Made by a program: the position numbers and the translations under genes. The notes beneath the pieces are model-generated. The model was not told the DNA's origin. It saw only the letters and a list, made by a program, of their open reading frames with translations, and did not search any database. Of a DNA stretch of 64,000 nt, positions 15,540 through 35,304 are shown in pieces (the stretch's first letter is position 1; every line of letters starts with the position of its first letter). This DNA is from Prostheceraeus crozeri. Lineage: Eukaryota > Platyhelminthes > Polycladida > Euryleptidae. The stretch spans positions 788,538 to 852,537 of the forward strand of contig CAJQUW010012972.1 in assembly GCA_907163375.1 (NCBI GenBank), read 5' to 3'.

Positions 15540-16363
15540 AGTAATGGTCAAAAGACCGTTCCAGGACAGGACACCCATAAAAATAAAAAAAATTGGTATC
15601 TTTAAAAACGACATAAATTCATGAATTTAGTCCCTTTTTCAGGTTTTAAAGACCTGAATTCATGAATTTAGTCCATTCAAAAAGTACCATTTTTTCAAAA
15701 AATGGTATTTTTAAAAACAACATAAATTCATGAATTTGAACCCTTTTTCAGGTTATGAAGACCTAAATTCATAAATTTGGGCGTTTTTAAAAATACCCAG
15801 TTTTTCAAATTTTTCAAAATCTCAAATTTGAGAATTGCAATTTTCACCCTTAAAATCATGACCGTTCCAGGACACCGAAAATCATAAAAGTTGAGAATTT
15901 CAAAATTTGAGAATTACAATCGGGCGAAGCCCTAGAACCTTCGGTTCGATTTTCATTGCTTAAATCATGACCGTTCCAGGACACCGAAAATCATAAAAGT
16001 TAAGAATCTCAAATTTGAGAATTACAATCGGGCGAAGCCCTAGAACCTTCGGTTCGATTTTCATTGCTTAAATCATGACCGTTCTAGGACACCGAAAACC
16101 CGGACACCGAAAAAATCATAAAAGTTGAGAATTTCAAATTCATGAATTTTATCCATCTTTCAGGTTTTTAAAATATATCATGTGACTAAAAATATTTCTT
16201 TAAAAATGGAAGAAACAAAAATGGAAGGAACTTCAGAAATGAATGAAACAAAAATGGAAGGAACAAAAGTGGAAGGAACTTCAGAAATGGAAGAAACAAA
16301 AGTGGAAGGAACTTCAGAAATGGAAGAAACCGCAAGAATATATCCTTCGTTATCTCAATTAAA
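15540..16363 (+). repeat. Left terminal inverted repeat of the Polinton
   Basis: Matches the reverse complement of 34497-35304. As far as I aligned them, the 16-bp length difference comes from one extra 18-bp coding repeat here and a 2-base A-run difference. The TIR is itself repetitive: several ATAAATTCATGAATTT palindromes, a CCATTTTTT/AAAAAATGG stem, and two tandem copies of a roughly 110-bp unit carrying the paired hairpins GGGC-GAA-GCCC and GAACC-TTC-GGTTC (15920-15950 and 16028-16058). Its inner end carries the start of a membrane-protein gene that is complete only at the right end. Confidence 0.93.
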
Positions 16364-16382
16364 CTTTTACGGAGCAGCGTGA
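16182..16382 (+). pseudogene. TIR-borne 5' fragment of the right-end membrane protein gene
   Basis: Translates to the same N-terminus as the 33860-34660 gene (MTKNISLKMEETKMEGTSEM) with one extra SEMEET repeat. It loses identity at 16363, where the TIR ends, and stops after a short unrelated tail. It is a by-product of the TIR extending into the gene, probably with a shared promoter, and is not expected to have the function of the full protein. Confidence 0.85.
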
Positions 16383-16860
16383 CTTCTTTCTTTCTTTCTC
16401 TCTCTCTCTCTCGATCCTGTCTGTTACAGGAATATTGTATTCACAATGACATGCATTCTTTAAAACAATTGCTTGTCTTCAATGAGAATAATTCCCATAT
16501 GCTTTTAATAGAATGACCTTGAACGCAAATGGAAAAATACACCAACTATCGAACCATGTCGACAGCCATATCGACAAACTTTCTGACATCGGCGCGACAG
16601 TTGGTGTATTTTTCCATTCAAGCAATGTCGCATGAATGATTGTTATTGAAACCAAAATGAAGAGAAATGCTCATTCATTTCTCTTCTCTCTCATATGTCT
16701 ATTGTGTTTAGATTGTATTTGTTCTTTTGTTCTCATAGTGTGAATGAGATTTCACAACTCGCATTATGCGCTATTGTCTGTGATTTCCTTCACCCCTATC
16801 AGCTGAAACAATTTTAGCAGCTGCTACACGCTAATTCTTTTGAGAAATGTCTGAAATAGA
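16364..16860. other. Less AT-rich segment inside the Polinton, with a 20-bp inverted repeat
   Basis: Contains a TTTC/TC microsatellite (16384-16413) and a perfect 20-bp inverted repeat: 16528-16547 (AATGGAAAAATACACCAACT) against 16599-16618, around a 51-bp spacer that carries two TCGACA words. Base composition is closer to host flank than to the rest of the element, so it may be a nested insertion or captured host DNA. No coding content. Confidence 0.55.
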
Positions 16861-16876
16861 TTTTATTCCATTTAAA

Positions 16877-17070
16877 ATGAGAAACATTAGAGACATTCTA
16901 AAAATATACAGCAAACAAAACCACATTAAATTTCGATTTAAATGAGATTGCTAAGCAATTGGGAATAAAGAATTTTCACATATTGATGAGTAATGAATTA
17001 CTATTGATAAAAGATGTACGAAACACTAACTCAACTCATACAATGCAACAATGTAACGTTTAAATTTAGA
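16877..17070 (+). pseudogene. Truncated, frameshifted duplicate of the adenain-like protease
   Basis: An ATG at 16877 opens a frame resembling the protease N-terminus. A frameshift near 16915 is needed to continue into a segment with QLGIKNFH and MSNELLLIKD, which parallels QLGIKNFH and MRNELQLIKN of the intact gene at 17312. Similarity ends after about 50 codons, before any catalytic residue. It is a partial tandem duplication about 435 bp upstream of the intact copy. Confidence 0.8.
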
Positions 17071-17096
17071 TTAAATTAAATCATTTCAAAATTGAA

Positions 17097-17275
17097 TAAG
17101 TAGTAAAGAAAGACATCATTAGAGACCAGTTTTAAATCAATACCCCCCCTTCTGACTAAGTAGTAAGGAAAGTCATCATTATAAAAATGTTTTAAATCAA
17201 TACCCCTTCTGACTAAGTAGTAAGGAAAGACATCATTAGAGAACAGTTTTAAATCAATACCCCCCCCTTCTGACT
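17097..17275. repeat. Three tandem copies of a roughly 60-bp repeat upstream of the protease
   Basis: Units start AAGTAGTAARGAAAG.CATCA and end AAATCAATACCCC..TTCTGA, with C-runs of 4 to 7. They lie directly before the protease gene and could hold its upstream control sequences. The unit is not seen elsewhere in the element. Confidence 0.8.
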
Positions 17276-17311
17276 TCTAGGGGTCCCTTAAGAAATTTTT
17301 TTTATTATAAA

Positions 17312-17770
17312 ATGAGCAACATAAATGAGTTTTTGAAATTATATGGAACACAAACGACAACGAATTTCGACCTAAAGAAAATCGCAAATCAATTGGGAAT
17401 AAAGAATTTTCATGTTCTAATGAGAAACGAATTACAATTGATCAAAAATAAGCCAACAGGAACCTTCAGTTCCCGGAACAAAGTTCCATCAATAACTGTA
17501 AATTTCATAACAAATCTTCATACGTCAAATGAAAAAGGTGTACATTGGTCAGCAGGCGTTAAAAATCATCAGCAGAACTATTATTTTGATTCATACGGTT
17601 TGCCCCCTACAAATGAAGTAAAAGAATTACTTGGAACGGGAACATACAATACATTTCAAATTCAAAAACCAGGAACTACCTATTGTGGACAATTATGTTT
17701 ATACGTTTTGTACAAATTACAAAAAGGAGTACCATTTCTAGATATTATGTTAGAATTGAACAATCTATAA
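17312..17770 (+). CDS. Adenain-like cysteine protease (Polinton maturation protease)
   Basis: A 152-residue protein of the C5/Ulp1-like family that in adenoviruses and Polintons cleaves capsid and core precursors during particle maturation. The catalytic triad is visible: His in GVHWSAGV (about residue 77), Asp in YYFDSYGLPP (about 91), and Cys in YCGQLCLYVLY (about 130, after a conserved Gln-rich stretch). The length is typical of short Polinton proteases. The ATG at 17312 follows a T-run/A-run motif shared by most genes of the element. It converges on the integrase gene with only 34 bp between stops, where a small AGC-GAA-GCT hairpin sits (17775-17783). A decayed 5' duplicate lies upstream. 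Confidence 0.9.
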   Translation: MSNINEFLKLYGTQTTTNFDLKKIANQLGIKNFHVLMRNELQLIKNKPTGTFSSRNKVPSITVNFITNLHTSNEKGVHWSAGVKNHQQNYYFDSYGLPPTNEVKELLGTGTYNTFQIQKPGTTYCGQLCLYVLYKLQKGVPFLDIMLELNNL

Positions 17771-17804
17771 CTCAAGCGAAGCTAGCTAAAGCGCCACCTA
17801 AAGG

Positions 17805-19217
17805 TTAAAGCTCTGTTTTCTGTAATTCATTTTGATAAAAACGGCCTCTGATATCCTCATTATCTAAATCTTTAATTTCATAAGTAATCGGATAACTTTG
17901 ATTTATTTTGCAAACTTCAAATATTTCTTTAGTCCAATAGCCAACAAAGCCTTTTTCAAATTTATTCTTATATTTAAATATTCTAACTCTATCTCCAATT
18001 TTAAATTTCGGCTTAAGTTTCTGCAAATTCGGATTACTCTCATTCAAATTATTATTCTCGAATATTTTCTTTCGTACTAGATCAGGGTCGTCAGAAGCAT
18101 TCTTTGGAGTTTCTTCAATACCAGAATGAACTTTATTATTGTACTCATCTACAATTCCTGGTAATATTTTTAACCATTTCTGATTTCTTTGCTCAGTAAA
18201 TTTCTTGAATAATTTATTTTTTAACGTCCGATTGAATCTTTCTATCACTACGGCCTTCCCTGCATTTTCAGTTGAATAAACAGTTTCAAATAATGGTTGA
18301 ACGTTTCGGTTATAAAATTCCGATCCTTTATCAACAAACAATTTTTTTGGCTTTCTATTACTTTCTTTAAAGATTTCTTCAAACGCATATTTAACTGATA
18401 GACCACTTTTATTTTTTAAAGGTTTTACCCAAGCGTATCGTGTATATAAATCTATAACGGTCAATGCGTATTTATAATCAGACTTTGTCCTAGAACCTTC
18501 GGTTCGATCTTTTTCATTCGGCATATGAATAAGATCAGCACTCCAAATATCATCTTTATTAAATACTTTTACTTTCAATAAATATTTAGGCCTTCTATAT
18601 TCCTTGTGGATTTCGGACGCGTAGGTTCGAGCGTTGCTCTCAGAGTTATTAGTTCGAGCGTTGCTCTCAGAGTTATTAGTTCGAGCGTTGCTCTCAGACA
18701 GCTTAGCTGTCGTTTCATTTAAACCCTGTCCGAATAATATTTTAGCTTGTAAAGCTTTCTTAACAAACATTCTTTCAATTCTTTCTCTAAATGTAGGATT
18801 TTGAATACTATCTAATTCTTGAATCATCTTCTTATCAGCTGCATGTCGAGAACTTAGATCATGATTTCGATAAGCTAAATCATGCCTGTAAGCTGCGGCA
18901 TCTACTCTATTTATTGGTTCTTCACCTGGTTTCGGATTATTATTCTCATCTAGTCTTATATCTAATCGAGTTCCTGGACCAGTATATGAATGACCAGGAA
19001 GATGTTTTTCTTTCGAATATTTACTCCAAATAAATCCAGGAAAGTTTTCTAATGTTTTTTGTATGTCACCACCGTAGGTAGTAGCCAAACTTTGTTTGTT
19101 GTCGTTACCTTCATAAATTTTACAATTTGAGTTTTTATTTTTGTTTAATAGATAATTCAATAAATCTAAATTAGAAATTTTTAATTTAGTTAAATTTTCG
19201 GAATTTGTAGAATTCAT
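17805..19217 (-). CDS. Phospholipase A2 domain fused to retroviral-type integrase
   Basis: A 470-residue protein. Residues about 72-130 carry a parvovirus VP1-type PLA2 signature: calcium loop YTGPG (78-82) and catalytic HDLAY (112-116). Such domains open endosomal membranes during virus entry. Residues about 205-335 are an rve integrase core with D228 (WSADLI), D296 (VDKGSEFYN) and E326 (IERFNRTLK). The C-terminus (about 403-467) is an SH3/chromo-like tail (FKIGDRVRIFKYKNKFEKGF) typical of Polinton integrases. The linker is three SESNARTNN repeats made by a 27-bp DNA unit with a GAGC-GTT-GCTC hairpin. Only 29 residues separate D296 and E326, fewer than the roughly 33-35 usual for the family. 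A hairpin-derived insert (EKDRTEGSRTKSD) lies between strands of the core. The frame is uninterrupted. A fused product or a cleavable precursor are both possible. Confidence 0.88.
   Translation of the reverse strand: MNSTNSENLTKLKISNLDLLNYLLNKNKNSNCKIYEGNDNKQSLATTYGGDIQKTLENFPGFIWSKYSKEKHLPGHSYTGPGTRLDIRLDENNNPKPGEEPINRVDAAAYRHDLAYRNHDLSSRHAADKKMIQELDSIQNPTFRERIERMFVKKALQAKILFGQGLNETTAKLSESNARTNNSESNARTNNSESNARTYASEIHKEYRRPKYLLKVKVFNKDDIWSADLIHMPNEKDRTEGSRTKSDYKYALTVIDLYTRYAWVKPLKNKSGLSVKYAFEEIFKESNRKPKKLFVDKGSEFYNRNVQPLFETVYSTENAGKAVVIERFNRTLKNKLFKKFTEQRNQKWLKILPGIVDEYNNKVHSGIEETPKNASDDPDLVRKKIFENNNLNESNPNLQKLKPKFKIGDRVRIFKYKNKFEKGFVGYWTKEIFEVCKINQSYPITYEIKDLDNEDIRGRFYQNELQKTEL
18486..18716. 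repeat. Trinucleotide-loop hairpins inside the integrase gene
   Basis: GAACC-TTC-GGTTC at 18493-18505; GAGC-GTT-GCTC three times in a 27-bp tandem (18629-18639, 18656-18666, 18683-18693); GACAGC-TTA-GCTGTC at 18697-18711. All have perfect stems and three-base loops, and all keep the reading frame open. Confidence 0.85.
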
Positions 19218-19403
19218 TTTAAAAGATAAAAAAAAATTAAAAAGATAAAATAAAATAATTGTTTTACCGAAAAAGGTTCTGAGGTTATTACCTTATCATA
19301 CTAGGACTTAGATATATTCCAGAACCATCTTTAGTTTCTTTAATTTCAATTAAATCATCAACATTGTGGAGAATATTTTTAAGAACTCGTTTTCCTTCAT
19401 CAA
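19218..19403. other. Intergenic, AT-rich
   Basis: Upstream region of the integrase gene, with T- and A-runs directly before its ATG. A 25-codon ORF may exist but I see nothing supportable. Confidence 0.4.
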
Positions 19404-19829
19404 CTAATTAGATTTACTAATAAAATTATCTACTACTCCTTTTCCTTCGGGCGAAGCCCTGGAAGACATCTCCGTTGACCCATGAACCGATGTCCCTTCA
19501 CCCCTAGCAACTTTCTCTAACTCTCTGTTATGACGTTTTTGTTCTTCTAATGCTGCCTTCTCTGATTTATTTTTATTTACTGCTTGGACAATACCAGCTG
19601 TCCCACCTGCAACACTTCCTGCTGCTGCTATGCCACCTATTATTAGAGGAATTAATGGGAGAATCCCGCCATTCTTTTCTTCTTGTAATTGAATATTCTC
19701 TATCATTGGTTTACTTATGTAATACTTTTTTTTATTAATAGTAATAGTTTTAGGGGTATTTTTGTCAACAATATTCCGTAATTTTAATTCAACAGTTTTA
19801 TTATTAATATTACTTTTCGCTTGCGACAT
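19404..19829 (-). CDS. Small virion core-like protein with hydrophobic membrane-active segment
   Basis: 141 residues. A glycine/alanine-rich hydrophobic stretch (about residues 54-85, GGILPLIPLIIGGIAAAGSV) is followed by a basic helix. Polinton and adintovirus genomes carry such small proteins next to the capsid genes, and they are compared with adenovirus core or membrane-lytic proteins (pX, pVI). The role here is inferred from that pattern and from its place between integrase and major capsid genes. Near the C-terminus SSRASPEG is encoded by the recurrent GGGC-GAA-GCCC hairpin (19449-19459). The ATG at 19829 is preceded by the shared T-run/A-run motif. Confidence 0.7.
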   Translation of the reverse strand: MSQAKSNINNKTVELKLRNIVDKNTPKTITINKKKYYISKPMIENIQLQEEKNGGILPLIPLIIGGIAAAGSVAGGTAGIVQAVNKNKSEKAALEEQKRHNRELEKVARGEGTSVHGSTEMSSRASPEGKGVVDNFISKSN

Positions 19830-19839
19830 TTTTAATAAA

Positions 19840-20050
19840 AAAATTTTAAGTTATCAAAAATTTAAATCTATTCTAGTTATGAAAAATTTTAAGTTATCAA
19901 AATTTTTAATCTATTCTAGTTACCAAAAATTTTAAGTTATTCTAGTTATGAAAAATTTTTAAGTTAAGAATTTTTAATCTATTCTAGTTATGAAAAATTT
20001 TAAGTTAAGAATTTTTAATCTATTCTAGTTATGAAAAAATTTTAATTAAT
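19840..20050. repeat. AT-rich tandem repeat between core-like and capsid genes
   Basis: About five imperfect units of 35-45 bp of the form TCTATTCTAGTTATGAAAAA plus TTTTAAGTTA. It occupies nearly all of the spacer upstream of the 19404-19829 gene and downstream of the capsid gene. Possibly a terminator/promoter region, or simply slippage. Confidence 0.8.
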
Positions 20051-21380
20051 TTATTCTAGTCATCTTCCCATTAAGAATTTCAATAGAATATTTTACATCT
20101 TCTAGCAATAAACCATAAGCCATCAATGAAGTTGTGGAATCTTTCTTTTCAATATTAATTGTTACATCACAACCATTTTTAATAATATCTTCAGATTGTG
20201 CACTTAAATCGAAACAGAAAATTGGATATAAATGTCTCCAATCTCCAGGAGTTAATTGTGGTTCAACTCCAAATTCTATACAAAGATTTCGATAAGAATC
20301 ATATCCTTCCATAAATTGATTATTGGTATCATCGAATCTTAATGGATCAATTGGATATCGAGTTTGATTTAATGAAACTTGTAAACTTCGAATTGTATTA
20401 ATATGAAAAATATTATTGTTCTTATCAAAACTTGGAGAATTATTTCTTTGAAATGTTAGTAATAAATATCTTGGAGTATTCGCAGTTCTAGTAAAATGCC
20501 AGTTAAATCTTTGTTCGGAAAAAGTTACTGAACTAGCAGTTCTCTTTAGAAAATTAACTGGAATTGGTTTGTTAGTATTTAATCTTTTTGCAATAGCTGT
20601 TTCAATCTCTAAACTAGGAGTAATATGCTTAATCCACCATTCAAGTCTATCAATTTTTAAATATGCTTTTTTTCCAGTCTTACCAAAAAAGATTAATTCA
20701 TTATTTGCTGTACGATGAATTATTAATTTAAATTTTAACTGATATGATATTTTAACATAATCTAAATATCCGAATAATGGAGACAATGACCAATTTACTG
20801 TTTGCTTACTTTTCTTGTTAAATTCACGTCTTTCTTTATATGCAGTATTGTTTGTTTTATTTAAATGTTTTGCAATATTTTCTACATCTTTCGCAATTCC
20901 TGCGGCATCTGTTCCAGCGTGAGTTAAATCCTCAATAATTATGCCATCATTAGTATCAGGAAACCAACCTTCGATTTCATGCTTTTTATTATTTTCACCA
21001 ATTATTACAAATCTAAGCATTGTATCAATTACACCTGGAGAATCACTTATTGTTTCTATATTTTGAGTTGCAACATCTAAACGCATTTGTGTAAATAATC
21101 TTGGAAAGAAATTATTCTCTAGTGTAATATTATCGGTATCTGGTAATGGTGTTGTAAAATTAGCATCAGAATATAGAGAATATTCACAGTGTAAAAATGA
21201 ATCAGGTAAATATAAATAACTCTGCTGATTATCAACTTCAAAGATTAAATCTCCTCCAGTATTTACTCTACTGGAAGATCCGGGATTCATAGCAATTCTT
21301 ATATAGTCATTCTTTTTTTGATTATAACTGACGAACGGAGGATCGTCTAATCTAAATTTATTTTCGATAAGCGAAGACAT
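20046..21380 (-). CDS. Major capsid protein (double jelly-roll, hexon-like)
   Basis: 444 residues, in the range of Polinton major capsid proteins. I place it in this family by length, by position between small core-like genes, and by segments typical of the family: an N-terminal PPFVSYNQKKNDYIRIAMNP, a strand-rich region with DSFLHCEYSLYSD and NNFFPRLFTQMRLD, and a C-terminal half with repeated beta-strand patterns (PRYLLLTFQRNN, RDLFPIF-like WRHLYPIFCFDLS). It would form the pseudo-hexameric capsomers of the particle. No frame damage. The ATG at 21380 is preceded by TTTTTTATAAAA. This is recognition from sequence features only; a structure-based comparison would settle it. Confidence 0.82.
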   Translation of the reverse strand: MSSLIENKFRLDDPPFVSYNQKKNDYIRIAMNPGSSSRVNTGGDLIFEVDNQQSYLYLPDSFLHCEYSLYSDANFTTPLPDTDNITLENNFFPRLFTQMRLDVATQNIETISDSPGVIDTMLRFVIIGENNKKHEIEGWFPDTNDGIIIEDLTHAGTDAAGIAKDVENIAKHLNKTNNTAYKERREFNKKSKQTVNWSLSPLFGYLDYVKISYQLKFKLIIHRTANNELIFFGKTGKKAYLKIDRLEWWIKHITPSLEIETAIAKRLNTNKPIPVNFLKRTASSVTFSEQRFNWHFTRTANTPRYLLLTFQRNNSPSFDKNNNIFHINTIRSLQVSLNQTRYPIDPLRFDDTNNQFMEGYDSYRNLCIEFGVEPQLTPGDWRHLYPIFCFDLSAQSEDIIKNGCDVTINIEKKDSTTSLMAYGLLLEDVKYSIEILNGKMTRIN

Positions 21381-21451
21381 TTTTATAAAAAATAATTTGA
21401 CTTTTTGTTTTTCTCACAGATAGAAAAAAAATTTTTACTAAAATATAATTT

Positions 21452-21952
21452 TTAGAATTTTGCTAGACCAGCTCCGCTACAGCTTTGCTGGTTAGACCGA
21501 AGGTTGCTGCTCACGCCATTACCTCTTATTTCTTCAATTGTTTTTTTATTATTTTTATTTTCAATATGTTTACTATCACCATCAACAGCTATGTTAGCAA
21601 TTTTGTTCTTTGTTTCATCTGAAAGTTTTTTTAATTTTTTTAGTTCTTCAGAATCATTCCTAAGTTTACGAATAGCTTCTAGTTGTTTTAATTCGTTTTG
21701 TGATTTAACAGCATTTGATATTGCACTAGCTGTACTACCTATAGCAGCTGCTCCTTTTGCAGCAGATGTAATCAAATCTTTATTATTTTTAATTAAGTTA
21801 ACGATACTTCCAATACCAGAAAAGATGCCATCCCCTTCTTTTTGAACGGTTTCTCTATTATCATAATGATAAACAGGATTCATACGTGGTTCATGAGCAA
21901 TTTTTTGATTTGAAGCAAAATGTTTAAGATTGTGTTTATAAATTATAGGCAT
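21452..21952 (-). CDS. Small basic virion protein, core or membrane-lytic type
   Basis: 166 residues. After a polar N-terminus, about residues 40-83 hold GDGIFSGIGSIVNLIKNN and an alanine-rich amphipathic segment (SAAKGAAAIGSTASAISNAV), followed by a charged coiled coil. This layout is common for adenovirus pVI/pX-like proteins encoded beside Polinton capsid genes, so a role in the core or in membrane disruption is likely but inferred. The last about 20 residues (SSNLRSNQQSCSGAGLAKF) are encoded by a cluster of small hairpins (ACC-TTC-GGT, CAGC-AAA-GCTG, AGC-GGA-GCT on the coding strand), so the C-terminus appears to have been extended or replaced by that repeat. Confidence 0.65.
   Translation of the reverse strand: MPIIYKHNLKHFASNQKIAHEPRMNPVYHYDNRETVQKEGDGIFSGIGSIVNLIKNNKDLITSAAKGAAAIGSTASAISNAVKSQNELKQLEAIRKLRNDSEELKKLKKLSDETKNKIANIAVDGDSKHIENKNNKKTIEEIRGNGVSSNLRSNQQSCSGAGLAKF
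21466..21512. repeat. Three-hairpin cluster at a gene 3' end
   Basis: AGC-TCC-GCT (21470-21478), CAGC-TTT-GCTG (21480-21490) and ACC-GAA-GGT (21497-21505) in a row, all with three-base loops. Encodes the C-terminal tail of the 21452-21952 protein. Confidence 0.75.
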
Positions 21953-21991
21953 TTTTTAGTAATAAATTTGACTTTTAGGAAAAATATAAAT

Positions 21992-22024
21992 ACGGGCGAA
22001 GCCCTGGAAGACATCTCCGATGTC
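21992..22024. repeat. Intergenic double hairpin
   Basis: GGGC-GAA-GCCC (21994-22004) followed by GACATC-TCC-GATGTC (22010-22024). A degraded version of the same pair occurs in the gene at 19449-19475, where the second stem is broken. Confidence 0.85.
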
Positions 22025-22040
22025 CATTATAAAAAAATGT

Positions 22041-23273: not shown

Positions 23274-23317
23274 TTTTTAACAATAAAAAAGGAAATTTTT
23301 TTCTAATAAAAATAAAA

Positions 23318-24580: not shown

Positions 24581-24595
24581 TTTAAAAAATAATAA

Positions 24596-26182: not shown

Positions 26183-26365
26183 TTAAACAAATTTATCATA
26201 ATTAAACAAATTTATCATAATTAAACAAATTTATCATAATCGAACCGAAGGTTCTAGGGCTTCGCCCGATTGCAGATATATATATATATTTATAATATTT
26301 TCCATTATATATATTTATAATATTTTCCATTATATATATTTTCCATTATATATATATTTTAGATT
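26163..26365. repeat. Tandem repeats and double hairpin upstream of polB
   Basis: Three further copies of a roughly 22-bp unit (AATTAAACAAATTTATCAT) continue from the gene end, so the last codons of the ATPase are part of the repeat. Then comes the double hairpin GAACC-GAA-GGTTC / GGGC-TTC-GCCC (26242-26267), identical to that of the TIRs, followed by (AT)n and TTATAATATTTTCCAT repeats to about 26365. Confidence 0.85.
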
Positions 26366-26413: not shown

Positions 26414-29400
26414 ATGAAAAAATTTTATTGTGTCTTATGTGAAAAAAAATTACAAACAAAAAGAAGTTATCAATCTCATCTACAAAGTAAAATGCATTTA
26501 CAAAATGTAGAACGAGTTGATGAAGGAAGTATATTAAAATTAAATAGTTATAAAAACTATTTAGAAACATTACCTACTGATATAAAAGTTAAAAAAATAT
26601 TTGATGATTATTCACATTCGGAATATAAAAAAGTTTTTAATAGTGAAGATGAACATGTATCAGATGGAAGATATTTATTTAGCGATACTGATGAATTTAA
26701 CGAAATAGATGAATTTGATGAAGCCGTAACAGATATAAAATATTTATTTAATGAATCGGTTGAATATAATGAAACCGATAAAACTTTTTCTGATATTCTA
26801 ACCAACTTTTCTAATATATTTAAGAAATCTTTCAAATGTTATATGAATGTAGAAGTACTTTATACAAAAAATGGATCTGATGGAATTCCTAAAGAAATAA
26901 TACAAGGACATTTTACAAAGTCACAAGAAATTCATAATGTAAATAATATACAACCCATATTTCAATCGATGATACTTAAATTAGAAAATTGTATAATTGA
27001 AGCCCAGTTACGTGAATCTGGTTGGAGATTTGTTAAAATACTATCTAAGAAAATAGTAATTGATAAATATAAAAATAATACTGGTGGTAGTTATGTTCCT
27101 TTACCTTTCAGTTCACCTCAATTAATCAACATAAAAAATGAAGATGATTATTGTTTTCTGTGGAGTATTATAGCACATTTACATCCTGCAAAATATCATA
27201 AAGAAAGACTAAGTCATTATAATAAAGAAGAATATATAAAGGAATTTGATCTTTCGGATGGTTTACATGAATTTCCATATGATTATAATAGGTTAATAAA
27301 GTTTCATAAAAAGAATAAAAATTTAATTGAAGTAAATGTTTTTGAATTAAATGTGAATTATGTTTCTATTGGTAAAATTACTCCACTTTACTCAGATTCA
27401 AAAAAATTTTATTTGAATAATAAAAATTTATGCCAATCAGAAATAGTATATAATGATAGAGGAAATTACATGCATCATAATATTTTTTACCAAGGAAATA
27501 TAATATGTACTGAAAAATTTGAACTTGTTAAAACACTATCACCAATAATGATTAATCATAATAATTATAAAGGACGTACTGATGATTATAATTACAAATA
27601 TTCATCTTTATCTTCAGAATATCAACAAAAATTAGAAAATTTAAATAAAAGTTTACAAAAATGTAAAATAGATTATCAACAACAAACAAAAATGTTACTA
27701 CAAGAATATCACCATAAATATCAAAATAAGATAGAAACAATTCAAAAATTAAATGAAGAAAATAATAAAAAATTAAATAATAAAGAATTAAATAATGAAG
27801 AAAATAAAGAATTAAATGAATGTTTAAAAAAATGTCTACAACAATATAAAGAACAATATGATAAAGAATATATTTATCAGCTACAAATATTAAATCAAAA
27901 TTATTATCAAAATACATTTAATATTACAAAAGAAATTGATGAAACACATGAAATATATAAAGATGAATTTGAAAAACTAGAACAGTCAAAACAACCAGCA
28001 CAAGCGAATATATTATATTATCAGGGTCATTTTATATTGTGTAAAGATGTTTCTATATTTACAAAAACTTCAGATAATAAAAATTTTCCTTGTCTTCAAT
28101 GTATGACAAGTTTTAGAACTTTAGAAGAAATGAATAGACATTTGGAGAATTGTCAACAAAACGAAGCAGTTCAAAATACTTTTCCTAAAGATGATTATTT
28201 AGAATATAATAAATGGTATTTTAAAAATAAAGTACCCTTTACTATTTATTGTGATTTTGAAGCATATAATGTTAATATGACACAAAATCAAACGGAAAGT
28301 TCCAGGGCTTCACCTGATTCTGAAAATTATAATTCTGAAAATTATAATTTTGAAAAAAGTGCGCCTGAAAAAAGTGCACCTGGAAAAAGTTCAGCTGAAC
28401 AAAGTAAAGAAAAATATTTATTTGAACAAAAACCATTATGTTGGGGAATGTACATTCATTCAAATTATCCTGAATTATTTAAATCAGAATATTTACAATA
28501 CTATGGTGAAGATAGTTCAGAAATGTTTACAAAGAAAGTAGAAGAATTACAAGAACGTTTTTCGCAATTGCTTGAAACAAATAAACCAATGATACCATTA
28601 ACGGATGAAAAAAGAAAAGAATTTGATGATGAAATAAATTGTTATTACTGTGGAAAAGGTTTTACAAATAAATATAAAACTGGCAAAGGTAGATATCTTG
28701 ATAAGGTAAAAGATCATGATCATCTAAATGGATTATATAGAGGTGCAGCACATAATTCTTGTAATCTTAATGCTAATAAATTTAAATATAACTTTGTTCC
28801 TTTATATTTCTACAATGGTTCTAAATATGATTTCCATCTAGTAATGAAAGATTTATTTTCATCTGAAAAATTACAACAACAAAAAATAAATGTACTATGT
28901 AAAACAGAAGAAGAATATTTTTCAATGCAATTAGGTTGTATTAGAATTTTAGATGCATTTAGATTTTTTACTCCTTATTCATTAGATGTTATGGGAAAAA
29001 CTTTGAAATCTGAACAATGTAAAATATTAAATAAATATAATTTAAAACCTTTAAAAGGAATATTTCCGTATGAGTACATAGCCTGCGGCTCACAGTCGAA
29101 GACTGATATAACTGGAGATTTTAATTCTGTGAATAAAATTATGGAAGAAGAACAACTTCCTCCAATAAATAAATTTAAATCAACATTAAAACAATCACAA
29201 TTATCTGACGAAGACTATGCAGAAGCTGAAAAAAATTGGAGAGAGTTAAATTGTAAAACAATGTATGATTATACAATGAAATATCTACAGATAGATGTAT
29301 TAATACTAGCTGATCTTTTCGAAAACTTTCGTGATATGTGTTTAGAATATTACGGAATAGATCCATGTTATTGTTATTCTACACCAGGTTTAACATGGTT

Positions 29401-30904
29401 AGCAGGATTAAAACATACAAATGTTAAACTTAAACATTATAAAGAAAATACATATGATAAATTATTATTTTTTGAATCTGGAATTAGAGGTGGTGTTTCA
29501 TCAGTTTTAGGTAATAGATATGTTAAATGTTATAATAAGAAAGTAAATCCACAAGAATATGGAATAATGAAACCTTTATCTCCAGAAGAAAGCGATCAGT
29601 TTATAAAATTGTTTAATCAAAATATAGAAGGACTTATATCAAATGAAGATAGTCAAGCAGCAGTTGATGAAATCATGAGAGAAAACTATTTATTATATTA
29701 TGATTTTAATAGCTTATATTCTTCTTGCATGATACAAGAATTACCAACAGGTGAAATGACATGGTGTAATAATCTAGATTATCAAAGAACATATGATGGT
29801 GAAAATAATTTTGGTTATGTATATGAAGTTGATTTAGTATACCCTGATTATATAAAAGAAGCAACAAAATATTATCCTTTCTGTCCAGAAAACAAAATTC
29901 CCAATATAGAAGATTTTTCAGATTATCAAAAATCTATAATTCCGAAAAAATACAGACCAACAAAAAAACTTATGTTAACACAAGGTAATAAAGGAAAGTA
30001 TGTTGTTGAAGGAAGAATGCTAGATTGGTATTTAGATCATGGTATGATTCTCACCAAAATACATCGAAAACTAGAGTATAGAAAATCTAAATGGTTAAAA
30101 AATTATATAGAGTTCAATATTGAAAAACGTAAAATAGCTAAAAGAAATAAAGATGATTTTGGAAACGTTTTCTTCAAATTAATGAATAATGCATTTTATG
30201 GTAAGACTTTAGAAAATGTGCGTAATAGACAAAATATTGAAATAGTTTATGATAGAGATAGATTTCAAAATTTAACAAGGAAACCTACATATAAAAGAAC
30301 TACTAGATTCAGTGATGAACTTTGTGCTGTTCATCTAAGAAGAAGCATTGTAAAACATGATAAGTTTAATTTCATTGGTTTCACTATATTAGAATTAGCT
30401 AAACTATTTATGTATAGTTTTATATATGATTATTTAGCACCTACTTATGGCAAAAACTATAAATTACACTTTACAGATACCGATTCTATTTTCTTAGAAT
30501 TAACAGTACCATATGGTTCTTCACTTGATAAAGAAATTAATAAAATAAAAGATATTATTCATCCTTCTGATTTATGTAAAGTAAAAGATGAATTAGAAGG
30601 AAATGAAGATTTCATAACAGAAGCTATATTTTTAAAATCTAAATGTTACTGTTATGATACAACTAATAATATTAAAACACATAAAACATTAAAAGGAATT
30701 TCAAAGGCATCAGTGGCTAATCAAATAACATTTCAAGATTATAAAAATGCATTATTTAATAATGAAATAAAAACAGCATATAATTATAGACTTAATTCAA
30801 AGAAACATAAAATGTATTTAAAAGAAGAACATAAATTAGCATTAGATCCATTTGATGATAAAAGAAAAATTTTACCTGATGGAATAACTACTTTACCTTT
30901 TTAA
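26414..30904 (+). CDS. polB: Protein-primed type B DNA polymerase
   Basis: 1,496 residues. N-terminal C2H2 finger (about 4-29, FYCVLCEKKL), a Polinton-type N-domain (about 238-268, NEDDYCFLWSIIAHLHP), a coiled region and a second Cys2 motif. Exonuclease: Exo I CDFEAYN (about 612), Exo II YNGSKYDFH (about 800), Exo III YLQIDVLILADLF (about 956). An HNH-like DHDHLNGLYRGAAHNSCN lies at about 765. Polymerase: Motif A DFNSLYSSCM (about 1097), Motif B KLMNNAFYGKT (about 1256), Motif C FTDTDSIFL (about 1353), then TLKGISKA. It should replicate the linear element from its TIRs with a terminal protein as primer. Between Exo I and the next conserved segment is a low-complexity insert (SSRASPDSENYNSENY..) of about 40 residues starting with the decayed hairpin repeat. 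The frame is intact. Confidence 0.95.
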   Translation: MKKFYCVLCEKKLQTKRSYQSHLQSKMHLQNVERVDEGSILKLNSYKNYLETLPTDIKVKKIFDDYSHSEYKKVFNSEDEHVSDGRYLFSDTDEFNEIDEFDEAVTDIKYLFNESVEYNETDKTFSDILTNFSNIFKKSFKCYMNVEVLYTKNGSDGIPKEIIQGHFTKSQEIHNVNNIQPIFQSMILKLENCIIEAQLRESGWRFVKILSKKIVIDKYKNNTGGSYVPLPFSSPQLINIKNEDDYCFLWSIIAHLHPAKYHKERLSHYNKEEYIKEFDLSDGLHEFPYDYNRLIKFHKKNKNLIEVNVFELNVNYVSIGKITPLYSDSKKFYLNNKNLCQSEIVYNDRGNYMHHNIFYQGNIICTEKFELVKTLSPIMINHNNYKGRTDDYNYKYSSLSSEYQQKLENLNKSLQKCKIDYQQQTKMLLQEYHHKYQNKIETIQKLNEENNKKLNNKELNNEENKELNECLKKCLQQYKEQYDKEYIYQLQILNQNYYQNTFNITKEIDETHEIYKDEFEKLEQSKQPAQANILYYQGHFILCKDVSIFTKTSDNKNFPCLQCMTSFRTLEEMNRHLENCQQNEAVQNTFPKDDYLEYNKWYFKNKVPFTIYCDFEAYNVNMTQNQTESSRASPDSENYNSENYNFEKSAPEKSAPGKSSAEQSKEKYLFEQKPLCWGMYIHSNYPELFKSEYLQYYGEDSSEMFTKKVEELQERFSQLLETNKPMIPLTDEKRKEFDDEINCYYCGKGFTNKYKTGKGRYLDKVKDHDHLNGLYRGAAHNSCNLNANKFKYNFVPLYFYNGSKYDFHLVMKDLFSSEKLQQQKINVLCKTEEEYFSMQLGCIRILDAFRFFTPYSLDVMGKTLKSEQCKILNKYNLKPLKGIFPYEYIACGSQSKTDITGDFNSVNKIMEEEQLPPINKFKSTLKQSQLSDEDYAEAEKNWRELNCKTMYDYTMKYLQIDVLILADLFENFRDMCLEYYGIDPCYCYSTPGLTWLAGLKHTNVKLKHYKENTYDKLLFFESGIRGGVSSVLGNRYVKCYNKKVNPQEYGIMKPLSPEESDQFIKLFNQNIEGLISNEDSQAAVDEIMRENYLLYYDFNSLYSSCMIQELPTGEMTWCNNLDYQRTYDGENNFGYVYEVDLVYPDYIKEATKYYPFCPENKIPNIEDFSDYQKSIIPKKYRPTKKLMLTQGNKGKYVVEGRMLDWYLDHGMILTKIHRKLEYRKSKWLKNYIEFNIEKRKIAKRNKDDFGNVFFKLMNNAFYGKTLENVRNRQNIEIVYDRDRFQNLTRKPTYKRTTRFSDELCAVHLRRSIVKHDKFNFIGFTILELAKLFMYSFIYDYLAPTYGKNYKLHFTDTDSIFLELTVPYGSSLDKEINKIKDIIHPSDLCKVKDELEGNEDFITEAIFLKSKCYCYDTTNNIKTHKTLKGISKASVANQITFQDYKNALFNNEIKTAYNYRLNSKKHKMYLKEEHKLALDPFDDKRKILPDGITTLPF
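28296..28400 (+). repeat. Repeat-derived insertion in the PolB exonuclease domain
   Basis: The SSRASP codons (AGTTCCAGGGCTTCACCT) are a decayed copy of the hairpin repeat that encodes SSRASP at 19.45 kb. They are followed by SENYN and EKSAP tandem units. The insert sits just after Exo I, so it presumably forms a surface loop. Confidence 0.7.
29080..29105 (+). repeat. Double hairpin within polB
   Basis: AGCC-TGC-GGCT (29080-29090) and CAGTC-GAA-GACTG (29093-29105), both perfect with three-base loops. Encodes ACGSQSKTD between the exonuclease and Exo III motifs. Confidence 0.85.
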
Positions 30905-31042
30905 TTTTCTAATTTCTATTTTCTAAATATAACAATATAACAATATAAAATATTATAAAATAATATAACATAAAATAATATAACATAAAATAATAATATA
31001 AAATAATAATATAAAATAATAATATAAAATTAACATATAAAA
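30905..31042. repeat. AT-rich tandem repeat spacer
   Basis: AAAATAATATAACAT and AAATAATAATAT units fill the gap between polB and the next gene. Confidence 0.8.
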
Positions 31043-31852
31043 ATGGATAAAGTTAGAGCTGATAATTTTAAAAGAATAAAACAATTAGACGAATTAATAA
31101 AACAAAGAAATATTATGAAAGAAAATCATCTTCAACATAGAATGACAAAAGCTGGTATTCAATCTGATATGTTTGAACAATTAAAATTAACTGAAGAAGT
31201 AAAAACTGATTATGAAAAAACTGTCGAACCATTTAAAACTCTTGAAAAAGAACTTAATGAAAAACGTGTTGATATAGCGGATCCTATACTTAAAACACTA
31301 TTAGATGACTATGGTTTGTTAGAGGCAAACATAGATAAAAAATTACCAAAATCTATGTTATTCGAACATTCTACTTTCTTTTTAGATAAAAAATTATTTG
31401 CAAGATTTTATCTTGGTGGTAAAGAAATATTTCCACAACCTTTACGGGGATTAATTTTTACTCCAGATAAAAAACCTATTAGTTTAGATAGAAATTTTGT
31501 TGATCTTTTAAGAGGAGCAGATTTAAAAAATTATGCTGTAGAAGATCTCATAAAATATAAAACTATATTAGATAGAGTAGGTGTAGTAAAAACTCTTAGA
31601 CGTTATAAACAATTAGAAAATTTATTATCAACGGGAGTTAAAATAGGAAAAGGTTTTAAAACTGAAACAACTGTATTCTTACCAGATGATCCACAAGAAT
31701 TACTAAATAGATTAAATATTTTAATATCTGCAATAAAAGAAGGACATAATTCTAGTTTCAATGAAATTCATGCTATATTGAAAAGACTGTTAGAAAAGAA
31801 GATTCTAAATGAAGAAGATTATAAAAGTGTAGCTGAAATATGTTGTTTCTAA
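31043..31852 (+). CDS. Conserved Polinton protein of unknown function
   Basis: 269 residues, mostly helical by composition. The N-terminal 35 residues (MDKVRADNFKRIKQLDELIK) are basic and duplicated as a separate ORF at 22041-22214. The middle has GKEIFPQPLRGLIFTPDKK and a leucine-rich segment, and the C-terminus FLPDDPQELLNRLNIL. The 'LIFTP..K.ISLDR.F..LL' and 'LPDDP..L..RL..L' patterns look familiar from unknown proteins encoded beside penton genes in animal Polintons, but I cannot name the family. It lies in the rightward block between polB and the penton gene. A structural or assembly role is a guess. Confidence 0.65.
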   Translation: MDKVRADNFKRIKQLDELIKQRNIMKENHLQHRMTKAGIQSDMFEQLKLTEEVKTDYEKTVEPFKTLEKELNEKRVDIADPILKTLLDDYGLLEANIDKKLPKSMLFEHSTFFLDKKLFARFYLGGKEIFPQPLRGLIFTPDKKPISLDRNFVDLLRGADLKNYAVEDLIKYKTILDRVGVVKTLRRYKQLENLLSTGVKIGKGFKTETTVFLPDDPQELLNRLNILISAIKEGHNSSFNEIHAILKRLLEKKILNEEDYKSVAEICCF

Positions 31853-31980
31853 TTTTTATCTATGATTTTTATTTATGATTTTTATCTATGATTTTTATTT
31901 ATGATTTTTATCTATGATTTTTATTTATGATTTTTATCTACGATTTTTATCTATAATATTTATTTAATTTTTTAGTTTAA
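31853..31980. repeat. 13-bp tandem repeat (TTTATCTATGATT type)
   Basis: About eight alternating ATTTTTATCTATG / ATTTTTATTTATG units fill the spacer upstream of the penton gene. Confidence 0.85.
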
Positions 31981-31982
31981 AA

Positions 31983-32771
31983 ATGTGTTCAGCAGATTTA
32001 GACAAAATTAATAAACATTTAGAAAATTTGACAGAGATTTTGGGTTCATCAAAATTTAGTACGACGTTAAAAATTATAACAACTACTTCATCACACACTT
32101 GTAATTTAGAACCCATTCTACATTTGGAACAAAATAAAAATTATCAAATTGCATTGACTAGTTTCTCTACATTTAACACTATTCAAAACGTTATCAAAGA
32201 TGTGAATGATCAATTTAGATATTCTACTGATAAAGGCAAAACATGGAAAATACTAACTTTTCTTCCTGGTTCTTACGAAGTTGAATCAATATCAAATGAA
32301 ATTAAGAGACATTTAGGGATACCATTTAAAGATAAGAAACAATTACATTTTGCAGTTGAACCGGCAGTTAATAAATTTTCTCTTACTTTAGACGAAAATC
32401 ATCAAGTTGATTTTAATCATGATAGATCATTGTCAAAGCTATTAGGATTTAATAAACAAACTTATAGTCAAGGTTATCATTTAAGTGAGAAGATTCCAAA
32501 AATAACTGAAATAAATTCAATTGTTGTACATTGTGACATTATTGAAGGAGGTTATATAAATGGTAAATTATCAAATTTAATATTCAGTTTTCCAGCTTTT
32601 ACTGTGCCCATTGGTTATAGATTAAATGTAATTCCACAAACATTAATATATTTCCCTATTACAAGAAAAACTATTAACAACATTAACATTAGAATCACTG
32701 ATGAGAAAGGACAAGAAATAAATTTTGGAGGTGAAGAGATTATGATAGATCTTTTGGTTCGAGAGGTATAA
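31983..32771 (+). CDS. Minor capsid (penton-like) protein
   Basis: 262 residues. The order and spacing of segments match Polinton penton proteins: YQIALTSFSTFNTIQNV, a GSYEVESISNEIKRHL strand-turn, KLLGFNKQTYSQGYHL, an INSIVVHCDIIEGGYINGKL segment, VPIGYRLNVIP, ITRKTINNINIRITDEKGQ and a C-terminal INFGGEEIMIDLLV. Single jelly-roll proteins of this type sit at the five-fold vertices. The start ATG is preceded by TTTTTTAGTTTAAAA, the shared leader. Adjacent to the packaging ATPase, as often seen. Confidence 0.85.
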   Translation: MCSADLDKINKHLENLTEILGSSKFSTTLKIITTTSSHTCNLEPILHLEQNKNYQIALTSFSTFNTIQNVIKDVNDQFRYSTDKGKTWKILTFLPGSYEVESISNEIKRHLGIPFKDKKQLHFAVEPAVNKFSLTLDENHQVDFNHDRSLSKLLGFNKQTYSQGYHLSEKIPKITEINSIVVHCDIIEGGYINGKLSNLIFSFPAFTVPIGYRLNVIPQTLIYFPITRKTINNINIRITDEKGQEINFGGEEIMIDLLVREV

Positions 32772-32862
32772 ACTCCCACGCGAAGCTAGAAAAGTTTAAT
32801 TTTCTTCTTCTTCTTTAAAAACAAAAAATTAAAAAATTAAAATAAAAAATTTTTATTAAAAA

Positions 32863-33630
32863 ATGAGTGAAGTGCCCCCATTAAATAAAAAAAAACTTAA
32901 ATTTAATCATCATCCAAATTTATCTAATAAAGTTTTAGCAGTTATTTGCGGAAGATCAGGATGTGGAAAAACATATCTATTATTTAAAATTTTAACAACT
33001 CCAAATTTTTTGGATTATAACAATCTTATAATTTATACAACAACAGCAGAACAACCCATCTATCAATTTTTAAAATATGGATTTGAAAATAATCTTAAAA
33101 AAACAGCAATTGCTTCTCTATTCGAAGAATACGAAAAATCTGAATATGAAGAAGAAATAAGTTCATGGTGTGAGGAAGCAACAACAAATAATCAGTTAGT
33201 CGAAACCAATAAAAATAAGCATATAAAAATACAACTAATAGATGATAGTGGTAATATGCAAGATCCTAGTAAACTAGATAAAACAATGAAACATTGTGTA
33301 ATTTTTGATGATTGTGTTAATGATAGAAATCAGTCAGTTCAGAGAAATTATTTTACAAGAGGTAGACATAATAACTGTAGTGTTTTTTATTTAACACAAA
33401 GTATGTATTCATTAGACGGAAGTGTTATTAGAAAGAATGCAAATATATTTATACTATTTGAAATAAATGCAAGAAACTTAAGTGATTTGCTAAGAGATTT
33501 ATGTATAAGAGATAAAGATGAATTTAAACAATCGTGTAATAATGCTTGGGCAAAAGATTATGGATTCATTACAATTAATATTGATAAAAAAATTCATGAT
33601 AGAGTTATCGAACAATTGTTCTCTGACTAG
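32863..33630 (+). CDS. A32/FtsK-HerA-type packaging ATPase
   Basis: 255 residues, the usual size for Polinton packaging ATPases. Walker A CGRSGCGKTYLLF (about 30-42), Walker B HCVIFDDCVND (about 145-155), then YFTRGRHNNCSVFYLTQSMY, containing the sensor-like RGRH..N segment of the A32 clade. It would translocate DNA into preformed capsids. The TAG stop lies within the first of three consecutive hairpins (33629-33667), which may act as a transcription or processing end between this gene and the convergent membrane-protein gene. Confidence 0.9.
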   Translation: MSEVPPLNKKKLKFNHHPNLSNKVLAVICGRSGCGKTYLLFKILTTPNFLDYNNLIIYTTTAEQPIYQFLKYGFENNLKKTAIASLFEEYEKSEYEEEISSWCEEATTNNQLVETNKNKHIKIQLIDDSGNMQDPSKLDKTMKHCVIFDDCVNDRNQSVQRNYFTRGRHNNCSVFYLTQSMYSLDGSVIRKNANIFILFEINARNLSDLLRDLCIRDKDEFKQSCNNAWAKDYGFITINIDKKIHDRVIEQLFSD

Positions 33631-33670
33631 GCTTCGCCTCGAGGGGCTTTGCCCCGACTGAAAGTCGATC
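33627..33670. repeat. Triple trinucleotide-loop hairpin at a convergent gene junction
   Basis: AGGC-TTC-GCCT (33629-33639), GGGGC-TTT-GCCCC (33643-33655) and CGACT-GAA-AGTCG (33655-33667) follow one another almost without spacing. Three different stem sequences with the same architecture argue that structure, not sequence, is what is kept. Confidence 0.88.
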
Positions 33671-33859
33671 GAAGATTTGTTTACCGAGTGATAAAAAATA
33701 TACAACATAGGGGTATAATATTTTTTTAAAATATAATATTTGAATTTTGCGGTAACATTGGAATACAGCAAAAACATTTTACTGAACAAATTATTTTTTT
33801 ATTGCTTTGTTGTCTGATATCTTTTCGTTCAAAGGTTTCTCGTTTAAAGTTTTCCTGTT
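33668..33859. other. Spacer between convergent genes
   Basis: AT-rich, no ORF with support. TTCAAAATATAATATT-like tracts only. Confidence 0.4.
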
Positions 33860-34660
33860 TTAAGTTTTGTTTAATAAAGTTTTGTTTAATAAAGTTTTGC
33901 TTAAATTTTCGCTTAAAGTTTTTAGCTCTTCTAAAAAAATTTTATCATTTTCTTCATTAGATATTTTACCACCAGTAAAAGTTTTATCATCACTAGAAAT
34001 TTTGCCACCCTGTTTATTCTTATCACCAACTTTTTCTGACTGTAATTTAAATGATATTTTATTTACTTCATTAGCTATTTGATCAAATTTTTCAATCTCA
34101 TCTAACGTAATAACATTATCATCACATACTCTTTGAAAGTAGTAATGTAGTTTATCATAGACTTCTTTAATATGTAAATGCTTAGTTTTTAATGATTTTC
34201 GTTTCTTAGTTATTAAAGATTTATCTAACATTGTAACAAGTGAAGTTGTAAAAACACCCGTACCTGTTAAAGCTGTAGCAACTACTGGAATTACTAAAAC
34301 ACCTGAAGATATAACAATTGTTAAAGCACCTAAACTTATTGTTAAGAATATGCCAATTCCTTGTGTTACATTCTTAACTTTAGTCCATCTCTTTCTTAAT
34401 TTTTTATAATGCTCTAATCTTAATAATAATTGAGATTCCTTATCTTTCATATACCTTACTCTATCCTTGTGTTTTTCTATATTTAATTCACTTATTTTTA
34501 ATTGAGATAACGAAGGATATATTCTTGCGGTTCCTTCCACTTTTGTTTCTTCCATTTCTGAAGTTCCTTCCACTTTTGTTCCTTCCATTTTTGTTTCATT
34601 CATTTCTGAAGTTCCTTCCATTTTTGTTTCTTCCATTTTTAAAGAAATATTTTTAGTCAC
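33860..34660 (-). CDS. Two-helix membrane protein starting in the right TIR
   Basis: 266 residues. The N-terminal about 45 residues are short repeats (TKMEGTSEMEET) encoded by 18-30 bp tandem DNA units. A basic helical region follows (about 60-95), then two hydrophobic segments at about 100-142 (IGIFLTISLGALTIVISSGV, VIPVVATALTGTGVFTTSLV), a basic stretch, and a segment with DDNVITLDEIEKFDQIANEV that looks EF-hand-like. The C-terminus ends in LLNKTLLNKT. Proteins with a double membrane helix followed by a 'D..I...E' helix recur near Polinton ends; their function is unknown to me. Its first about 55 codons are duplicated in the left TIR. Confidence 0.7.
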   Translation of the reverse strand: MTKNISLKMEETKMEGTSEMNETKMEGTKVEGTSEMEETKVEGTARIYPSLSQLKISELNIEKHKDRVRYMKDKESQLLLRLEHYKKLRKRWTKVKNVTQGIGIFLTISLGALTIVISSGVLVIPVVATALTGTGVFTTSLVTMLDKSLITKKRKSLKTKHLHIKEVYDKLHYYFQRVCDDNVITLDEIEKFDQIANEVNKISFKLQSEKVGDKNKQGGKISSDDKTFTGGKISNEENDKIFLEELKTLSENLSKTLLNKTLLNKT

Positions 34661-35304
34661 ATGATATATTTTAAAAACCTGAAAGATGGATAAAATTCAT
34701 GAATTTGAAATTCTCAACTTTTATGATTTTTTCGGTGTCCGGGTTTTCGGTGTCCTAGAACGGTCATGATTTAAGCAATGAAAATCGAACCGAAGGTTCT
34801 AGGGCTTCGCCCGATTGTAATTCTCAAATTTGAGATTCTTAACTTTTATGATTTTTTCGGTGTCCTGGAACGGTCATGATTTAAGCAATGAAAATCGAAC
34901 CGAAGGTTCTAGGGCTTCGCCCGATTGTAATTCTCAAATTTTGAAATTCTCAACTTTTATGATTTTCGGTGTCCTGGAACGGTCATGATTTTAAGGGTGA
35001 AAATTGCAATTCTCAAATTTGAGATTTTGAAAAATTTGAAAAACTGGGTATTTTTAAAAACGCCCAAATTTATGAATTTAGGTCTTCATAACCTGAAAAA
35101 GGGTTCAAATTCATGAATTTATGTTGTTTTTAAAAATACCATTTTTTGAAAAAATGGTACTTTTTGAATGGACTAAATTCATGAATTCAGGTCTTTAAAA
35201 CCTGAAAAAGGGACTAAATTCATGAATTTATGTCGTTTTTAAAGATACCAATTTTTTTTATTTTTATGGGTGTCCTGTCCTGGAACGGTCTTTTGACCAT
35301 TACT
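34497..35304 (-). repeat. Right terminal inverted repeat of the Polinton
   Basis: Reverse complement of 15540-16363 with only two indels noticed. Carries the same double hairpins (34787-34815 and 34897-34925) and AATTCATGAATT palindromes. It includes the promoter and 5' end of the 33860-34660 gene. Its outer end ACGGTCTTTTGACCATTACT abuts the GGCCTA duplication. Confidence 0.93.

Follow-up and report, generated by a model that had tools for sequence, protein, structure and literature searches.

The window analysed here, a stretch of 64,000 nucleotides from Prostheceraeus crozeri (788-852 kb of contig C10760, in a host genome of 2.05 Gb and 14,165 contigs), contains a Polinton-type element (15540..35304, no strand assigned) that has a 6-bp duplication, GGCCTA, on both sides and carries GC-rich hairpins with three-base loops, which are well supported as insertions and are the subject of this report. 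Polintons or Mavericks are defined by genes for DNA polymerase B (PolB), an rve integrase, an A32-type ATPase and a double-jelly-roll (DJR) capsid-like protein between terminal inverted repeats (TIRs), with a 6-bp duplication. The element possesses all of these features and is a Polinton/Maverick: its genes, assigned by Pfam, encode an rve integrase fused with a PLA2-like domain, a DJR capsid-like protein, two proteins that match the A32-type ATPase family and a DNA_pol_B_2 polymerase of 1,496 amino acids (aa), and its TIRs (15540..16312 on the plus strand and 34530..35304 on the minus strand) are ~773 bp long and 99.7% alike. In 1-kb steps the GC content is 21-34% in the element and 25-50% in the remaining window. 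The nearest named relatives among the matches listed are all distant, being from Lottia gigantea for the capsid and Mytilus edulis for PolB.

The hairpins are arranged in units of a general plan, two short GC-rich stems with a 3-nt loop each, joined by 2-5 nt. Unit A (28 bp) reads C-GAACC-GAA-GGTTC-TA-GGGC-TTC-GCCC-G, and unit B (37 bp) reads C-NNGG-GACATC-NNN-GATGTC-TTCCA-GGGC-TTC-GCCC-G, the second half being common to both. Unit C (28 bp) consists of AGCC-TGC-GGCT or AACC-TGT-GGTT, followed by CA and then CAGTC-GAA-GACTG, and its variation from AGCC/GGCT to AACC/GGTT preserves pairing; the other units, D, E and F, have a greater length or a compound structure. The ends of A and B are C...G, with no longer inverted repeat, and those of the C-type are A...G. 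Among 11 stem families of paired units, drawn from the window element and 20 numbered loci (L009-L028), nine have C and two have T directly before the loop, and none has a purine there (P ~5e-4 if the families are independent); the loop is of the GNA type in 8 of the 11 (P ~7e-6 on the same condition). GNA loops closed over at least two G-C pairs give very stable, nuclease-resistant DNA mini-hairpins, GCGAAGC having a melting temperature of 78 C (PMC4686876). DNA folding prediction gives adjacent triloop hairpins for all eight units tried, with one 4-nt loop besides in E. A T-shaped structure like that of adeno-associated virus was considered and dropped: the outer pairing is a single C-G pair plus the palindromic duplications, and a T shape is not predicted.

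Unit A is present twice in the left TIR (15921..15948, flanked by AT on each side, and 16029..16056; both minus strand), in ~108-bp monomers of which one more is empty (~15838), twice in the right TIR (34786..34813 and 34896..34923; plus strand) and once in the spacer between the A32 ATPase gene and PolB (26241..26268, plus strand). The integrase gene contains an A-like unit at site S13 (18479..18506, minus strand), encoding a 10-aa insert aligned as KDRTEGSRTK, and F-type hairpins at S14 (18629..18711, minus strand), which read on the gene strand as GACAGC-TAA-GCTGTC and three GAGC-AAC-GCTC. A partly rearranged B-type insert, S12 (19435..19500, minus strand, a few flanking bases included), lies inside the open reading frame (ORF) 19404-19829, and a unit B, S9 (21993..22025, minus strand), lies in a spacer where other copies have E-type arrays. 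PolB contains unit C at S5C1 in its catalytic region (29078..29105, plus strand; 10-aa insert IACGSQSKTD) and, beyond the hairpins listed in the preliminary description of this DNA, a decayed unit A at S4 (28289..28316, plus strand; peptide QTESSRASP), where other copies have an intact A or B. A D-type triple hairpin, S15 (33629..33667, plus strand), is found at the 3' end of ORF 32863-33630. The preliminary description had placed hairpins in both TIRs, as found here, and in four spacers, of which two are clear (21994 and 26242), with the S15 cluster at the gene end besides. Its statement that hairpins in genes are always in frame does not hold for that cluster, which supplies the stop codon of the ORF; relatives without the cluster extend a few codons further.

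All ten stem sequences quoted in that description were found exactly, and the comparison with shuffled sequence that it proposed gave a large excess, not the lack of one that it had named as a refutation. Against 300 dinucleotide shuffles in 600-bp blocks, the interval 15600-35250 contains 17 hairpins with a 3-nt loop and a GC-rich inner stem (shuffle mean 1.17, standard deviation 1.06), a count reached by none of the 300 shuffles; with the TIR hairpins left out (16150-34700), 13 remain against 0.98, again attained in 0/300 shuffles. The right flank (35251-58400, the satellite beyond not being counted) shows no excess, with 9 against 9.2 expected. Pairing of adjacent hairpins is similarly confined: the element contains ten adjacent pairs with loops of 3 nt, and 0, 0, 1, 0, 0 and 0 with loops of 2, 4, 5, 6, 7 and 8 nt; loop-3 pairs in shuffles average 0.01 with a maximum of 1, and none occurs in 44,235 bp of the window flanks. 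Twenty fetched loci (197,703 bp), selected at places of unit A, contain 82 adjacent loop-3 pairs, nine loop-5 pairs and 0-2 pairs of each other loop length; the nine loop-5 pairs are probably loop-3 centres counted one pair out. In the left flank (1-15600) a mild excess was observed, ten GC-rich triloop hairpins against 4.8, with 4/300 shuffles as high and no adjacent pairs.

Alignment of related Polintons, which had also been proposed at the outset, revealed that a given site may be filled by hairpins in one copy of the genome's Polintons and empty in another, the insertions being clean and bordered by 2-bp duplications. In PolB, three sites that are empty in the window (26655..26780, plus strand) are variously occupied in other copies: S3 (26655) is empty or contains A (+30 bp), B (+39) or A and B in tandem (+69, or +66 in L019); S2 (26725) is empty or contains A (+30) or B (+39), with +48 and +63 where the copy has an added repeat; and S1 (26753) is empty or contains A (+30) or B (+39). 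A fourth PolB site, S5C2 (29120..29121, plus strand), is empty in 7 of 14 rows, the window among them, and filled by unit C (+30) in the other seven. Five of nine copies are empty at S12, which otherwise has versions of +42 and +57 bp, and five of nine at S14 (+33, +66 and +72 bp), as are 7 of 12 rows at S15. The spacer or TIR sites S9, S10 and S7 hold A, B, E or arrays, the E units being spaced by GAT; S10 (16186..16190, plus strand), inside the left TIR, is empty in the window and contains A or B in other copies, and no empty copy was seen at S7 among those compared. Different types of unit thus alternate at one site, stack in tandem and share halves. At the sites that have an empty state, copies without the palindrome also lack the residues that it encodes, which is the opposite of the second refutation named in the preliminary description, conservation of the residues in relatives that lack the palindromes.

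L013 is 0.004 from the window copy across the neighbouring 716 aligned columns (bootstrap 100), and over ~275 bp of PolB the two are identical except for two inserts of 30 bp with clean junctions, one bounded by a TA duplication and the other by TT. Degenerate patterns for A, B and C matched 91 copies in L009-L048 and the element, and in 69 of these the two flanking 2-mers are identical, being AT, TA, AA or TT in every case. The target duplication is of fixed length, 2 bp in the clean cases and in these 69 copies, and because an A/T dinucleotide is left on both sides of the unit, the total gain is 30 bp for A or C and 39 bp for B. Since the same sites are filled or empty across Polinton copies and the A/T duplication is 2 bp, the hairpins are insertions and not fixed signals.

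Within genes these insertions keep the reading frame. At six internal coding sites that have an empty state, every length change is a multiple of 3 (30, 33, 39, 42, 48, 57, 63, 66, 69 and 72 bp, besides an 18-bp repeat), whereas spacer or TIR sites also show changes of 31, 38 and 62 bp; because of those other lengths, the in-frame bias is read as selection after insertion. Four of the six frames of unit A are stop-free, yet at all six coding sites examined (S1, S2, S3, S4, S8 and S13) the unit is in a single orientation relative to the gene and is read as RTEGSRASP or a variant of it. Unit B is read as GTSEMSSRASP or a variant at S1, S2, S3, S4 and S12. Insertions in genes probably persist for the most part where the frame is preserved and the added peptide is hydrophilic and tolerated.

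The direction of change was determined at two sites by comparison with outgroup proteins. The 10-aa insert at S13 is absent from all seven aligned integrase relatives (of 120 listed), and that at S5C1 is absent from all six aligned outgroup PolB sequences that cover the site (seven aligned of 60 listed); because the outgroups are without them, both inserts are gains in this lineage. The region of S14 varies in length among the seven aligned integrase relatives. A pattern search of the 228 homologues retrieved (48 of the capsid, 60 of PolB and 120 of the integrase) found no unit-coded peptide, the B-specific pattern having been run on the first 108 of these and the 48 capsid homologues being uninformative as the capsid gene of the window has no unit. 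A tree of the columns next to S1-S3 (716 aligned columns, 16 rows) has 3 of 12 inner branches well supported, and requires a minimum of five state changes at S1, six at S2 and six at S3, counts that fit, but do not prove, repeated gain, loss or exchange.

Unit A is abundant in the host genome: its 26-bp core has 3,341 exact copies and the full 28-bp unit with its C...G ends 3,186, with none of the reversed pattern in either case. All sampled copies lie in Polintons. Twenty-six loci, chosen as not plainly half of a TIR pair from the first 100 listed of the 3,341 exact 26-mer places, all match the window element (blastn, at least 383 bp, unit A masked), 16 of them having the flanks of TIR monomers and ten those of internal sites. 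Twenty control stretches from the same contigs (30,020 bp, 40% GC) contain no hairpin pairs and no match to the element. Units A, B and C have no match in viral contigs, and the core of unit A was not found in a collection of bacterial and archaeal genomes.

From these observations we infer that the hairpins are probably a family of very small selfish mobile DNA insertions, double mini-hairpin elements, within one Polinton lineage, and that they move as folded single-stranded DNA during Polinton replication. The preliminary description, which was reminded of the mobile GC clusters of yeast mitochondria, had offered selfish micro-palindromes as one of several options; this one is supported by the filled and empty sites, the 2-bp duplications and the lack of the insert in outgroup proteins at the two sites checked. 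The unit enters an A/T dinucleotide, which then stands on each side of it. Units land side by side and so give arrays, replace one another at a site, and have halves in common. Movement would take place while Polinton DNA is extrachromosomal or under strand-displacement replication, the mobile form being folded single-stranded DNA protected by its GNA/C-G triloops; a DNA hairpin made or exposed in Polinton replication could be captured at a 2-nt staggered opening. Such units would be without function for the Polinton, that is, selfish.

Several points weigh against this reading. This sequence analysis revealed neither a protein that mobilises the units nor hairpin DNA in free form, and no act of transposition. 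The minimum of 5-6 changes per site is soft because the tree is poorly resolved, and old insertions could have spread by recombination from one Polinton copy to another with no fresh insertion taking place. The flanking 2-mers are not identical in 22 of the 91 copies, and many of the 69 that match share descent, those of the TIRs above all. The unit at S1 of L013 is already point-mutated, so that the empty state of the nearly identical window copy could be a precise loss. S4 of PolB was empty in none of the copies compared, and in 9 of 13 the palindrome is partly decayed with the peptide largely kept (QTESSRASP, RTESSRASP or QTESSRAST), which is interpreted here as decay of an inserted unit. 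Frame-keeping is imperfect, as a filled copy of S1 (L027) has a stop inside the unit and S15, at its gene end, has lengths of +61 and +32 that are not in frame. Confinement to Polintons was observed in a sample drawn by exact 26-mer, and 16 of the 26 are TIR copies, which are Polinton by nature. In predicted DNA folding energy the units are only a moderate improvement on shuffles (z -1.4 to -2.4). RNA folding also gives hairpins: those of A, of its complement and of C are the same as in DNA, and in B the first stem is longer.

A further proposal, a doubtful one, is that physics alone selects these micro-parasites: GNA/C-G mini-hairpins in any pairing would survive nucleases as free single-stranded DNA during extrachromosomal strand displacement and be captured at 2-nt staggered Polinton breaks with no need of a transposase, so that unrelated sequences would converge on the design and restriction to Polintons would mark a virus-like phase apart from the host chromosomes. 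Movement by a protein of the Polinton or of the host, whether the integrase or a so far unrecognised nuclease that binds hairpins, would make the units ordinary miniature cut-and-paste transposons; this is unlikely, despite agreeing with the frequent 2-bp duplication, the C...G ends of A and B, and L014, which lacks the unit at S15 yet retains GAGA like an excision footprint. A length of 28 bp is very short for transposase ends, the C-type ends differ, and no candidate gene stood out by Pfam on the ORFs of the element, several of which are without assignment; the integrase in particular is disfavoured as the mover because the element's own duplication is 6 bp and not 2. The observation itself is that at L014:7679 the unit is missing and both GA copies remain (GAGA), possibly as a footprint of excision.

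Folded unit RNAs could instead be reverse-transcribed or reverse-spliced into Polinton DNA. The ability of the units to fold as RNA and the single orientation of unit A at the six coding sites examined would agree with such a route, but orientation bias is equally explained by selection on the peptide, the loops are of the GNA type known for DNA mini-hairpins whereas tetraloops are usual in RNA hairpins, and RNA copies of nuclear transcripts should land in host DNA too, not in Polintons alone. A partly RNA-mediated route has been suspected for the GC42 cluster of yeast (PMC4478555), which counts in its favour; on balance we consider this explanation quite unlikely for the Polinton units. It is likewise quite improbable that the units have no present mobility, being ancient insertions that recombination merely redistributes from one Polinton to another and that disappear when slippage occurs across the 2-bp repeats. 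The weakly resolved tree is consistent with recombination, S1 of L013 holds a mutated A, and partial deletions are present at S2 of L042, S3 of L019 and S15 of L014; against this, the different unit types and the tandem of A and B at one site need repeated insertion or conversion, and two near-identical copies differ at two sites with clean junctions.

The preliminary description also considered replication or packaging signals and RNA-processing sites, and selected cis-elements of the Polinton (for replication, packaging or transcript end formation) might explain why unit A is found in both TIRs, often repeated, and in a spacer, why a spacer and the end of a gene hold other units, and why an exact sequence is kept in more than 3,000 copies. 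Such functions are very unlikely because occupancy differs between near-identical copies and many of the insertions lie in coding DNA, adding translated peptides; an empty TIR monomer also stands beside filled ones. Chance or composition, although GC-rich spots stand out in an AT-rich element, is rejected as practically nil by the shuffles (0/300) and by the count of 3,186 exact copies where the reversed pattern has none.

The preferred reading, selfish double mini-hairpins moving within Polintons, has parallels in several known systems. Double-hairpin elements were reportedly described from Allomyces mitochondrial DNA by Paquin et al. in 2000. The Polinton units resemble, in structure and in how they act, yeast mitochondrial GC clusters and fungal or sponge hairpin elements: the likeness to mitochondrial double-hairpin elements and GC clusters consists of at least two adjacent GC-rich short stem-loops, filled and empty sites, and direct repeats of 2-3 bp. 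The difference is one of location, the sampled units being in Polintons, and because the defining mitochondrial location fails, they are not filed as members of that class. Compared with GC42 and its kin, the units lie in Polinton copies on large contigs, have A/T dinucleotide duplications, measure 28-37 bp and are in frame within several genes. The sponge elements are adjacent short stem-loops that are repeated, show evidence of spread and are sometimes genic and kept in transcripts; they are organellar, and the genic ones are mostly in rRNA and fewer in protein genes (PMC2800124), whereas the Polinton units have 3-nt loops and several protein-coding sites.

Palindromes within genes have other precedents. 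Rickettsia palindromic elements (RPE) insert in frame, and their units are longer than those of Polintons. They share with the present units the presence of a palindrome in frame in protein genes, here at six internal coding sites with the exception at the gene end, but belong to a bacterial chromosome with no tie to a mobile host element, whereas the Polinton units inhabit a 2.05 Gb genome. The presence of Rickettsia elements within proteins has been noted (PMC2635572). In mitochondrial genes of Nematomorpha, inverted repeats of up to 284 bp in translated genes encode conserved protein regions (PMC6649704); those palindromes are long, whereas the Polinton units encode short added peptides that relatives lack.

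Miniature inverted-repeat transposable elements (MITEs) and bacterial repetitive extragenic palindromes (REPs) are small non-autonomous repeats with inverted symmetry. With MITEs the Polinton units share a target duplication of fixed length. They appear to differ from both classes in having no transposase ends, and they place their hairpins next to each other where a MITE or REP would have terminal repeats enclosing a core; no autonomous partner comparable to that of a MITE was found, as sought by Pfam on the ORFs of the element. At the level of the single hairpin, the half-unit GGGC-GAA-GCCC contains the GNA mini-hairpin GCGAAGC itself; d(GCGAAGC) is known from oligonucleotides and aptamers (PMC4686876), and in the Polinton units it is part of what is probably mobile DNA. 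No report of such hairpin units in Polintons was found among the matches listed in a search of titles and abstracts of the open-licence PubMed Central literature.

Mitochondria and bacteria are the main places from which micro-parasites of this kind are known, with Rickettsia as the source of in-frame palindromes. If the interpretation is correct, thousands of copies, of which all sampled ones are within Polintons of a large genome, would place such elements in a host context that is new, the many filled and empty sites would be available for working out how 28 bp of DNA can move, and the units would be a natural tracer of whether Polinton DNA goes through a non-chromosomal, virus-like stage. 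The in-frame peptides in the polymerase and the integrase show how selfish DNA is able to give rise to protein insertions.

Queries with the capsid and integrase against viral contigs gave no confirmed locus, and no tRNA, tmRNA or known RNA family was found in the window. L013 and L014 belong to one Polinton copy (G000:C205:1193000-1215999) of which both ends read TIR, A32-like gene and PolB inward; its layout suggests an inverted duplication, head to head, with the centre near L013:9600-9650, in an AT-rich stretch upstream of PolB, and could be a product of snap-back replication or an assembly artefact. The PolB ORF (26414-30904) matches a C2H2-type zinc finger at the N-terminus and, weakly, a second time near residue 560. 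A minus-strand ORF (33860-34660) has its N-terminal part inside the right TIR and a truncated twin in the left TIR from ~16207. The end of the window (58418-64000) is a long satellite array of AAATAAAGTTTCAACAGT-like units with periods of 29, 63, 92 and 239 bp and a strong GC skew (~0.3).

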